A stretch of DNA of 64,000 bases from contig NZ_JAMLJK010000001.1 of NCBI RefSeq assembly GCF_023700005.1, positions 2,091,096 through 2,155,095 on the forward strand, in the 5' to 3' direction. The notes beneath the pieces were generated by a model, which did not search any database, had not been told where the DNA came from, and was given only the letters and a program-made list of their open reading frames with translations. Position 1 is the first letter of the stretch. Each line of letters starts with the position of its first letter. The translations under genes and the position numbers were made by a program. This document shows positions 36,233-40,446 of this stretch, in pieces. The DNA comes from Larsenimonas rhizosphaerae (GTDB lineage Bacteria > Pseudomonadota > Gammaproteobacteria > Pseudomonadales > Halomonadaceae).

Positions 36233-37030
36233 TCAGAAGAAGAGTCGACGCAGCGCAGCGCCCGCATCAGGATCACGCATGAAGCTTTCACCAACCAGAA
36301 AGCCATTGACGTCATGCGCCTGCATACGGTGCACATCGTCGCGGGTGGCAATGCCTGATTCCGTGATGACGGTCACACCATCGGGAATCATCGGCAATAG
36401 ACTGAACGTGGTATCAAGCGATGTTTCAAACGTATGCAGGTCGCGATTGTTGATTCCCACGAGAGTCAGATCCAGCGCCAGTGCACGATTGAGTTCGAGG
36501 GCATCATGCACTTCCACCAGCACATCCATATCCAGGTTGCGGGCCTGATCGTGAAGGGCCTTGAGCGCGTCATCATCCAGAGCAGCCGCAATCAGCAGAA
36601 TACAATCCGCGCCCAGTGCCCGGGCCTCGAGCACCTGATAGGGATCAATCACAAAGTCCTTGCGAAGCACCGGCAGTGCACAGGCATCGCGGGCTGCCAT
36701 CAGGTATTCATCACAGCCCTGAAAAAAGTCGACATCGGTCAATACCGACAGGCAGCTGGCACCGGCCTCTTCATATTCCCGTGCAATATCAGCCGGCCTG
36801 AAATCCTCGCGAATAACCCCTCTGGACGGAGAAGCCTTCTTGACTTCGGCAATCACCGCCGGGTCACCGGCCAGCATGGTACGCTCAAGTGCCTTGATGA
36901 ATCCGCGGGGCATCGGAGCCTGCTTGACCCGGGCCTTGAGGGCGTTCAGTGGTGCAATGGCCTGACGCTCGATGACTTCTTCGCGCTTGCGCGCGATGAT
37001 ACGGGCCAGAATGGTGGGCAACTCACTCAT
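36233..37030 (-). CDS. trpC: indole-3-glycerol-phosphate synthase
   Basis: Closes the indole ring from CdRP in tryptophan synthesis; single-function TrpC of 265 aa, not fused to TrpF. Seen: [31 protein letters not shown] with the catalytic Lys, [34 protein letters not shown] and VTESGIA-type [12 protein letters not shown] plus [13 protein letters not shown] 37030 overlaps trpD by 8 bp; the longer open frame to 37210 lies within trpD. Last gene of trpGDC; trpF, trpB and trpA are not in this window. Confidence 0.96.
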
Positions 37031-38054
37031 CTGCCACTCCTGCAAAAACAGACGTGAAATGGGACAACTCGCGCAAACGCTCTGCTGCCAGGCCGGTATA
37101 CAGGGCATCCTGGGCCATGGCCACGCCCTCCTTGATCGAGGAGGCAATACCTGACACGTAAATGGCAGCCCCTGCATTATAGGCCACCATATCCGCAGCA
37201 GGACCATCACCTTTCAACGCCGTCTTCACCATCGCCAGACTTTCTTCGGCATTGGACACCTTGAGCGTCTCCAGTGAGCTGCGCGACAGCCCGACGTCTT
37301 CCGGTGTCAGGGTATAGGTCGTGATCTCCCCGTCCTTCAGCTCCGCGACATGGGTTACTCCGGCAATCGACAGCTCATCCAGACCATCCTCGGCATGAAC
37401 GACCAGGGCATGAGTACTGCCGATGCGACGAAGCACCTCTGCAAAGGGCTCGATCAGCGAGGCATCATAAACACCGATCACCTGTTGCCGTGCACCGCTT
37501 GGATTGGTCAATGGCCCGAGAATATTGAACATCGTCCGGACCCCGAGCGACTGGCGCACCGGCACCGCGTGACGCATGGCCGTATGGTGATTCGGCGCAA
37601 ACATGAACCCGACACCAACGTCTTCGATACAGCGACCGATCTGCGCCGGAGTCAGATCCAGCGTGACGCCGGCCCGCACCAGCAGATCAGCGCTGCCGGA
37701 GCTGCTGGAAACGCTGCGCCCGCCATGCTTGGCCACATGGGCGCCTGCTGCTGCGGCTGCAAAGCACGAGGCTGTAGACACATTGAACAACCCTGCACCG
37801 TCTCCGCCGGTCCCTACGATATCGACCACATTGTCAGCCTGAACCCGGACGGGCGTCATCAGCTCACGCATGACCTCAACAGCCGCCGTGATTTCGTCGA
37901 CGGTCTCCCCCTTCATGGCAAGACCGATCAAGAACCCGCCCATTTGAACCGGGTCGGCCTGGCCACTCATCATTTGATGCATGACCTCACGCATTTCCTT
38001 TAGCGCAAGGTGCTCGCCCCGTGTGACACGAGTGATGGCTTCTTTCAGTTCCAC
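37023..38054 (-). CDS. trpD: anthranilate phosphoribosyltransferase
   Basis: Transfers phosphoribosyl from PRPP to anthranilate; 343 aa. Key motifs: [24 protein letters not shown] (PRPP-binding GTGGD), [51 protein letters not shown] and [10 protein letters not shown]. The start is a GTG at 38054 (V-E-L-K-E-A-I), preceded by AGGAAGGA; the 28 extra upstream codons overlap no homologous region. It is 53 bp after trpG and is not fused to it, unlike in enterics. Confidence 0.95.
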
Positions 38055-38107
38055 GACAATCCTTCCTGTAGTTGTTTCAACCTGAGTGAGGCGTGTGCGC
38101 CGGCGGC

Positions 38108-38722
38108 TCAGGCGACTGCCCGCGTGGTGATCGGACATTCGCCTCGTTCGAGAAAGTTCGCCAGTAGCTGATGGCCCTGACGCGTCAGGATGGATTCCGG
38201 GTGAAACTGGACTCCTTCGATATCAAGGGTCCGATGGCGCAGCCCCATGACGAGCCCGGGCGTGACATCATCATCACCGGTAAGGGCCGTGATCTCCAGG
38301 CAGTCCGGCAGGCTGTCACGATCGACTACCAGCGAATGATACCGGGTCACCTCCAGCGGGTTTTCAAGCCCCTGGAAGACCCCCACGCCTTCATGATGCA
38401 CCAGCGAGGTCTTGCCATGCATGACCTGCGGTGCACGCACGACCTGACCGCCATAAACCTGACCAATGGCCTGATGGCCCAGGCAAACACCCAGTATGGG
38501 CAACCGGCCGGCATATTCGCGTATCAATGCCATGGAAATGCCCGCCTCGTTCGGCGTGCACGGGCCCGGCGACACGATCAGGTGCGTAAATGATTTTCCG
38601 GCAATGTCTTCAAGCGTGACGGCATCGTTGCGGAGGGTTTCGACTTCGGCACCCAGCTCCCCCAGATACTGCACGATGTTGTAGGTAAAGCTGTCGTAAT
38701 TATCGATCATCAGTACAGACAT
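38108..38722 (-). CDS. trpG: anthranilate synthase glutamine amidotransferase subunit
   Basis: Supplies ammonia from glutamine to TrpE (and possibly to PabB). Class I glutamine amidotransferase of 204 aa with [19 protein letters not shown], the oxyanion region [12 protein letters not shown], catalytic Cys in [11 protein letters not shown] and His-Glu in [17 protein letters not shown] lies about 10 nt before the ATG. It heads trpGDC and is preceded by a tryptophan attenuator in the gap to trpE. Confidence 0.95.
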
Positions 38723-38777
38723 GATGTACTACTCCTTGCGTATCAAACCATCCGCCGACCGCGCCAGGGGAAGACAC

Positions 38778-38802
38778 AAAAATGCCGCCCTAGCGGCGGC
38801 AT
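38778..38802 (-). terminator. trp attenuator terminator (regions 3:4)
   Basis: On the minus strand, ATGCCGCC (38802-38795), loop GCTAG, GGCGGCAT (38789-38782), then TTTT: an intrinsic terminator 56-60 bp before trpG. The 5' arm GCCGCC can instead pair with GGCGGC at 38832-38827 (region 2), which would destroy the terminator. Region 2 in turn overlaps CCAGCG, which can pair with CGCTTGG across the Trp codons of the leader (region 1). This is the classical 1:2, 2:3, 3:4 set. Confidence 0.85.
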
Positions 38803-38838
38803 CGTCGATCACACAAACACACGCTGGCCGCCTGTCTT

Positions 38839-38895
38839 CTAGCGAGGCCACCAAGCGCCGAGGCGCGAAACGAGTGTAGTTGTCGTGATCATCAT
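38839..38895 (-). CDS. trpL: trp operon leader peptide
   Basis: Eighteen-residue frame MMITTTTLVSRLGAWWPR on the minus strand, stop TAG at 38841-38839. Two adjacent Trp codons (TGG TGG at 38853-38848) sit three codons before the stop, and region 2 of the attenuator begins 7 bp after it, so a ribosome stalled for tryptophan would mask region 1 and favour the antiterminator. An ATG at 38904 would add three residues. No Shine-Dalgarno is seen. The overlapping 65-codon frame 38729-38926 is a shadow. Confidence 0.82.
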   Translation of the reverse strand: MMITTTTLVSRLGAWWPR

Positions 38896-38902
38896 ACAAT
38901 GC

Positions 38903-38931
38903 ATAGTGTGTTGCCCGCAGAACCATGTCAA
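38903..38931 (-). promoter_or_regulatory. candidate trpGDC promoter
   Basis: Consensus TTGACA (38931-38926), 17-bp spacer, weak -10 CACTAT (38908-38903). The predicted start, near 38896, falls at the ATG of the leader peptide. Its -35 overlaps the 3' arm of the trpE hairpin. Confidence 0.5.
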
Positions 38932-38961: not shown

Positions 38962-40446
38962 TCAGTCCAGATTATCGAGCCCTTTTTCAGCCATTGCGAC
39001 CGCCTTGAACATGGCACGCCGCTTATTGAGGGTTTCCTGCCATTCGTCGTCCGGGTCGGAATCGGCCACGATGCCACCGCCCGCCTGCACGTGCAGTTCA
39101 CCCCGCTTGATGACGGCAGTACGGATGGCAATCGACATGTCCATGTTGCCGGACCAGGACAGATACCCTACCGCCCCCGAATAGATCCCCCGCTTGACCG
39201 GCTCGATTTCGTCAATGACCTCCAGCGCCCGGATCTTGGGCGCGCCGGACAGGGTGCCTGCCGGGAAGGTGGCTCGCAGAACATCCATCGGCCCGAGCGA
39301 CGGCTTTATGCGCCCCACCACATTGGACACGATATGCATTACATGCGAATACCGCTCGATGCTCATGTTATCGGTCAACTCGACGGTTCCCGGCTGACTG
39401 ATCCGGCCAACATCGTTACGGCCCAGATCGATCAGCATCAAGTGCTCGGCACGCTCCTTCGGATCGGCCAGCAGTTCAGCTTCAAGGGCCAGGTCTTCTT
39501 CCGCGGTGGCGCCACGATGACGCGTTCCGGCAATGGGGCGAAGCGTAATCTCGTCACCCTCGAGCCGCGCCAGGATCTCGGGCGATGCGCCCACGACGTG
39601 GTGGTCGTCCAGGTTGAAGAAAAACATGTAGGGGGACGGGTTCAGGTAACGCAGCGCCCGGTACAAATCCAGCGGCGGAGCCGAAAAGGGAATCGACATG
39701 CGCTGGGAAGGTACACACTGCATGACATCGCCGGCCAGGGTGTATTCCTTGATGCGACGAACGGCGTCCTTGTAGCCCTCTTCCGAGAAGCTCGCAAAGA
39801 AATCATTCTCGCCAATGTCGTCGCGACCGGAGCCCGGACTGGATGCCGACAACATGGTGGCCCGCAGTTGGGCTTCCAGCACATCAAGACGCTGATAAGC
39901 GCCGCGCAGGGCCTCCTCTCGAGATGGATCCGCATGCACAACCAGTGTCAGCTGGCCTGAAAGGTTGTCGAATACCACGACTTCCTCGGCCACCATCAGC
40001 AGAATATCCGGTACATCGATGGGGTCCGGCTTCTCGACGCCCTGCAGGCGTGGTTCGATATAACGAATGGTGTCGTAACCGAAGTACCCGACCAGACCAC
40101 CGGTAAAGCGCAACGTATCTTCTTCCGGCACCTTGAATCGCTGCCGGTACTGATCGATCCAGGCCAGCGGGTCCGTTACCTGTGTAGCACCGGCATCCTC
40201 ACCATCCATGAAATGACGGATGGTAAAGCCACGAACTTCAATTCGCTCGCGGCACGGCAGCCCGATAATAGAGTAGCGGCCCCACTTTTCACCCCCCTGT
40301 ACGGATTCGAGCAAAAAGCTCCATGGCGCGTTGGCCAGCTTGAGATAGGTAGACAGCGGCGTATCAAGGTCGGCCAGAATACGGCGTGAAACAGGAATAC
40401 GGGTATAACCGGCATCAGCCAGTTCATTAAAGCGTTCAGGTGTCAT
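38962..40446 (-). CDS. trpE: anthranilate synthase component I
   Basis: Makes anthranilate from chorismate with TrpG; 494 aa. The N-terminal [18 protein letters not shown] holds the Ser of the LLES motif that binds feedback-inhibiting tryptophan. The chorismate-binding domain has [65 protein letters not shown] and [13 protein letters not shown]. It lies downstream of gph, as in pseudomonads, and is separated from trpGDC by 239 bp that carry a hairpin, promoter and attenuator. Confidence 0.96.

Follow-up and report, generated by a model that had tools for sequence, protein, structure and literature searches.

The question raised by this locus is whether the trpGDC genes of Larsenimonas rhizosphaerae are controlled apart from trpE and, if so, by which kind of switch. 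In the window (the whole stretch of 64,000 nucleotides that was analysed, by computation throughout), trpE (38962–40446, minus strand) is the upstream neighbour of trpG (38108–38722, minus strand), 243 nt away as measured by aligned ends. Two reading frames on the same strand, named here from sequence resemblance, are presumably trpD (listed at 37023–38138) and trpC (listed at 36233–37210); the true start of each is probably further in. The first gene under the predicted control, trpG, has a ribosome-binding site of its own, AAGGAG (38732–38737, minus strand), with a duplex energy of -8.0 kcal/mol, compared with -1.5 kcal/mol for the ATG of a short leader frame that lies between the two genes. 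The reading developed below, which is very probably correct, is that this leader belongs to a ribosome-mediated attenuator with its own promoter, which controls trpGDC apart from trpE and whose leader peptide is translated from a leaderless mRNA.

The leader frame had been described in the original prediction as a minus-strand frame of 18 codons with two adjacent Trp codons (WW) in front of trpGDC, and it is indeed present: MMITTTTLVSRLGAWWPR followed by a stop, at 38895–38839, with its ATG at 38895 and the stop TAG at 38841–38839, both read from the sequence. The adjacent Trp codons, which form the putative sensing site, occupy 38853–38848. Among ATG-initiated frames no longer than 30 aa, the window has two with WW at most five codons from the stop, and the trpG leader is the only one of them that is followed by TTTT in the 97 nt after its end. 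Downstream of the Trp codons, and on the same strand, GGCGGC (38832–38827) lies within region 2 (38833–38825) and pairs with region 3, GCCGCC (38800–38795), both placed as had been foreseen. Region 3 can form either this antiterminator or, with region 4, an intrinsic terminator (38803–38778) in which GATGCCGCC (38803–38795) pairs with GGCGGCATT (38789–38781) around a loop of 5 nt, ahead of a U tract (38782–38778); the terminator and its U tract agree with the original prediction, and the stem has 9 bp instead of the 8 bp given there. The predicted pairing of CGCTTGG with CCAGCG as helix 1:2 was rejected, since it is absent from the minimum free energy fold and both this fold and the relatives show other partners: region 1 (UGGU.GCCU, 38853–38845) pairs with region 2 (AGGC.GCCA, 38833–38825). 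The segment 38896–38774 folds at -55.2 kcal/mol (z of -3.5), and none of 200 shuffles was as low. The locus thus holds a short frame with tandem Trp codons ahead of a biosynthetic operon, mutually exclusive helices 1:2, 2:3 and 3:4 (with covariation for 1:2 only), and a helix 3:4 that is an intrinsic terminator with a U tract, as expected of a Trp attenuator. The Rfam Trp_leader covariance model, a search with which the original prediction had proposed, gave no match in the window at E up to 10 and none at the gathering score in six related loci.

Conservation of the element has been followed through the family, in which 199 of 201 genomes have a TrpG match. The regions upstream of trpG were examined in 125 of these 199 genomes (30 loci plus 100 regions, five of which were repeats), and the element was recognised by TGGTGG in a short frame at most five codons before the stop. 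In 52 of the 125 genomes, belonging to 13 of 19 genera, trpG is preceded by a WW leader, by helices that can form alternatively and by a terminator; the leader peptides have 15–18 aa and the terminator is present in all 52. The survival of the WW frame and of the complementarity of regions 2, 3 and 4 in close relatives, on which the original prediction had been made to depend, is seen in these 52 genomes and in all three genomes of the genus of the window. The WW element is absent from the other 73 genomes of the family, including 34 of 34 in one genus (g10), and is present in 17 of 40 genomes of another (g20). Its distribution follows the distance between trpE and trpG, which was tabulated for the 100 of the 125 genomes in which both genes could be placed: 0/32 at gaps of at most 150 nt and 52/68 in the others, namely 14/20 at 151–500 nt, 21/28 at 501–6000 nt, 7/10 further apart, and 10/10 with trpE on another contig. 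This indicates that the attenuator module accompanies trpG genes that lack tight coupling to trpE. An ordinary intergenic trpE terminator accompanied by a chance WW frame, with no regulation at all, is extremely improbable; a terminator alone would suffice at such a place, and terminator-like matches to the model R1 are common in genomes, but the WW frame, a covarying helix 1:2 and the promoter are conserved in 13 genera, and the element persists where trpE is kilobases away or on another contig.

The helices of the attenuator were compared in an alignment of the 48 distinct sequences among the 52 elements, and the compensatory changes that the original prediction had proposed to look for appear in helix 1:2 and are missing from 2:3 and 3:4. 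In the relatives, the codons after WW pair with a G-rich stretch after the stop, for example CGCTCC/GGGGCG, CGCCTTTGA/TCAAGGGCG, GCCCTC/GAGGGC and CGCGC/GCGCG, and the residues that these codons specify vary despite the pairing (RS, RL, PS, QS, RF, RAP). For helix 1:2, 91.1% of cells are paired, five of the seven pairs have changes on both sides, 20 cells are doubly changed, and the covariation score is reached by none of 500 shuffles; two other measures are less distinctive, the number of further pair types being unexceptional (reached by 312/500 shuffles) and that of pairs with both-sided change being reached by 26/500. Helices 2:3 and 3:4 (90.5% and 95.6% of cells paired) are near-invariant and show no covariation beyond shuffles in the alignment, an invariance that would follow from the need of region 3 to match two partners. 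In single-sequence tests against a shuffled region 2, pairing 2:3 was significant (p<0.05) in 39/52 loci and 1:2 in only 8/52. When a ribosome is modelled as sitting at the second of the two Trp codons, the mean folding energy of the RNA as far as region 3 is -16.3 kcal/mol (at or below -6 kcal/mol in 52/52), and helix 3:4 alone has a mean of -16.5 kcal/mol. As the energies of the 2:3 state and of helix 3:4 are nearly equal, the choice between them would have to be kinetic, made by the order of synthesis.

From the anatomy and its conservation, which are observed, we infer the start site, stalling and termination as follows. Transcription would start at the leader ATG or 1–2 bases from it, and the 18-codon leader would be translated as a leaderless mRNA. 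When charged tRNA-Trp is low, the ribosome would stall on the two Trp codons and cover region 1, so that 2:3 pairs, no terminator forms, and RNA polymerase continues into trpGDC. With ample tryptophan, the ribosome would reach the stop and cover region 2, leaving 3:4 to form and transcription to end at the U tract. In the absence of translation, 1:2 and 3:4 would both form and transcription would also end.

The start of this transcript is suggested by a conserved predicted trpGDC promoter on the minus strand, with the -35 hexamer TTGACA (38931–38926) and, 17 nt after it, the -10-like hexamer CACTAT (38908–38903), which stands 7 nt before the leader ATG. Among the 52 relatives with a leader, the -35 hexamer is TTGACA in 49 and TTGACG in three, the spacing is 17 or 18 nt, and the -10-like hexamer has A at its second and T at its sixth position, being CACTAT in 32. 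The distance from this hexamer to the in-frame leader ATG is 6 nt in 27 loci and 7 nt in 25; a promoter at one of these two distances is found in 52/52 real loci and in 4/10400 shuffles, and two of the 52 loci also have a promoter pair at another distance. Where there were several candidates, the promoter/ATG pair nearest 6.5 nt was chosen; when the farthest in-frame ATG was taken without guidance, the gap was 6 or 7 nt in 44/52, an ATG further upstream in frame being taken in the other eight. The usual distance from a -10 hexamer to the transcription start is about 7 nt. Taken with the fixed spacing between promoter and ATG, this means that the leader AUG should stand at the head of the mRNA, that is, the start codon is predicted to lie at the transcription start or within about 1–2 nt of it, and trpGDC to have an attenuated promoter of its own. 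Both this promoter and the leaderless start predicted from it are new and go beyond the original prediction; the separate control of trpGDC proposed there is supported by the dedicated conserved promoter, together with the link between the element and the separation from trpE. Leaderless translation of trpG itself was also considered and rejected, since only 4/125 trpG ATGs have a promoter at 6 or 7 nt, three of them near-identical and with weak hexamers.

Alternatively, the same attenuator might have its leader translated from a longer transcript, made by read-through from trpE or from a promoter further upstream, and not be leaderless. This is unlikely, although trpE is the immediate same-strand upstream neighbour in this genome, leaderless starts are only inferred, and a generic promoter scan (nine of 12 matches) reported no promoter here, CACTAT matching TATAAT at only 3/6 positions. 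Against it stand the two hexamers at their fixed distance from the ATG in every one of the 52 loci, and the retention of this promoter where trpE lies elsewhere. Moreover, there is no excess of Shine-Dalgarno complementarity before the leader ATG in the 52 loci as compared with shuffled sequences (anti-Shine-Dalgarno duplex energies of -2.4 kcal/mol for the leader, -2.3 for shuffled sequence, and -5.0 for trpG). A hairpin after trpE, AAGGCCCGC..GCGGGCCTT (38955–38930, minus strand), also speaks against the longer transcript; it has no U tract. Its 3' arm overlaps the -35 hexamer of trpGDC, and a similar inverted repeat is present in genome G009. As for trpE, a second conserved short frame, ending in WRW and a stop and often reading MRxVKRWRW, stands ahead of it in 26 of 30 loci (the window and L250–L278), with no obvious U-tract terminator; the version in the window (40587–40528, minus strand), MPIFETPDACRCNAAGWRG followed by a stop, is altered. 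This frame is possibly a separate trpE leader.

The predicted-leaderless attenuator before trpGDC can be compared with several known systems. In Escherichia coli, the trp leader has WW codons, the same logic of helices 1:2, 2:3 and 3:4 and an intrinsic terminator, together with a 5' UTR that carries a Shine-Dalgarno sequence, and the operon is also under TrpR. The element described here differs in its lack of an Rfam match, of a Shine-Dalgarno excess and of a TrpR match: TrpR (PF01371) was not matched in this genome in a search whose control was positive in E. coli (and in Bacillus subtilis). In Pseudomonas, trpGDC is likewise controlled apart from trpE, and the title of a 2001 study by Olekhnovich and Gussin reportedly announces attenuation of both P. 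putida operons, trpE and trpGDC. In genus g92, taken for Pseudomonas, 21 of 25 genomes have before trpG a frame that ends in RWRWRA and a stop, not WW, and 20 of the frames read VIH..., mostly from GTG. This leader type fits P. aeruginosa, for which premature 3' ends before trpGDC have been reported beside a possible uORF with a GTG start (PMC8297930). An identity of the present element with the Pseudomonas trpGDC uORF was rejected, since that uORF ends in RWRWRA. One record named P. fulva has a QWWRFQ leader with an R1 score of 31.3 bits and, by eye, no promoter at the leaderless distance. Leaderless trp leaders have been reported elsewhere. In Sinorhizobium meliloti, the trpL RNA (rnTrpL) begins at the ATG of a leader ORF of 14 codons, and attenuation gives a short RNA (PMC7298713); there the leaderless start is reported and here it is predicted. 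This bacterium, however, is an Alphaproteobacterium and its leader precedes trpE(G), not trpGDC. Another example is trpL1 of Streptomyces lividans, MFAHSTRNWWWTAHPAAH, which is leaderless, contains WWW and has an end resembling a terminator (PMC8079986). It resembles the present element in these respects, leaderlessness being a prediction here, but it belongs to an Actinobacterium and stands before a monocistronic trpE.

Beyond the family, a search of the order with R1 (293 genomes, E up to 0.001) gave matches in 28 genomes, and scores above 50 bits were found only in the family of the window (G000, G001, and G003 twice). A wide distribution in the order was rejected, as all but three (L220, L221, L247) of the 29 loci inspected (L220–L248) looked like ordinary terminators; in G000, R1 reaches at most 30.3 bits outside the element, which it matches by construction. 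A plasmid search gave no match. In a Gammaproteobacteria MAG (L047, 2790–3000), MAHSDVSLNSLWQHYADWWAPARHTL followed by a stop begins 6 nt after TAAAAT, with GTGAGTAA-4-GTGAGTAA before trpG; this leader has no clear -35 hexamer and no R1 match. Literature on point for a trpG attenuator or a trpG-attached prophage in Halomonadaceae was not found, which is weak evidence of absence, since the subscription literature lay mostly outside the scope of the search.

A further link concerns prophages. Prophage-like elements use the 5' end of trpG for attachment, and two of them carry a predicted leaderless attenuator. In the Salinicola-like genome G003 (L220, L247, L304–L306), a prophage has inserted within the first codons of trpG; the order is host attenuator (WWW, predicted leaderless), first trpG codons, tyrosine integrase (PF00589 and PF13356) and prophage, which includes genes for capsid and head-tail proteins (PF20911, PF12236). 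About 45 kb further on, trpG is preceded by a different predicted-leaderless attenuator, MTTAPIASIKSWRLH followed by a stop, with one Trp and 52 bits with R1, and both ends of the element share GTCCTCATGATCGA of trpG. The integrase was found at E up to 1e-120 in eight of 201 genomes; besides G003 these are G014, G015, G081, G057, G143, G141 and G101 (L417–L428, L437), which belong to other genera and have an integrase of this kind at the 5' end of trpG. In seven of the eight, integrase and trpG point the same way, with the integrase 35–51 kb upstream; the contig of G101 stops there, and this genome gave only a weaker TrpG relative. A stretch resembling the start of trpG occurs at all eight integrase ends, and in G014 the integrase side has a stranded old WW attenuator, predicted leaderless, MRTRKDLQPSLWWRS followed by a stop (69.6 bits). 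An attenuator was seen at 2/8 trpG-side ends; in six integrase genomes other than G003, R1 detects none at this end. The second case is a phage-like contig, IMGVR_UViG_2788500074_000003 (L441), with a predicted-leaderless one-Trp leader, MTSISMTIAKQWRLVI followed by a stop, before trpG (R1 53.0 bits). Its trpG frame has an early stop, the frames ahead of the attenuator resemble phage antirepressors, and a 66% similar integrase lies on a separate contig that bears the same genome number. Four viral contigs matched the terminator pattern, two of which (L440, L442) have neither a Trp leader nor trpG. Paired repeats, such as CTGGGTAA-4-CTGGGTAA or GTGAGTAA-4-GTGAGTAA, stand just before trpG in 16/125 genomes compared with 2/5000 shuffles (4/52 with the element and 12/73 without it), and are perhaps integrase arm sites. 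The last part of the record of Acinetobacter phage TPWB-05 (L443, 1400–1560) resembles the start of trpG/pabA, with GTGAGTAA-4-GTGAGTAA ahead of it as in the elements above, and R1 has no match there.

These arrangements raise the possibility, which we put a little short of probable, that the promoter and attenuator form an exchangeable cassette: temperate phages or islands with a tyrosine integrase that attaches them at about codons 2–9 of trpG could bring their own leaderless tryptophan attenuator, and lysogeny would replace the trpGDC switch of the host. More surprising than the attenuator itself is the link with phages, which rests on two cases. As a whole, the element is best described as following the known logic of trp attenuators in a form that is new, family-wide and predicted to be leaderless, and it adds to the Gammaproteobacteria a trp attenuator that is invisible to Rfam and whose sensor ORF is predicted to be leaderless. 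In such a device, the speed of leaderless initiation, and not that of Shine-Dalgarno initiation, would need to match the pace of RNA polymerase. The element is tied to a trpG uncoupled from trpE and, in one case, a prophage apparently gives its host a replacement amino-acid attenuator. If the cassette reading is true, past insertions would help to explain both the patchy distribution of the element in the family and the separation of trpE from trpG.
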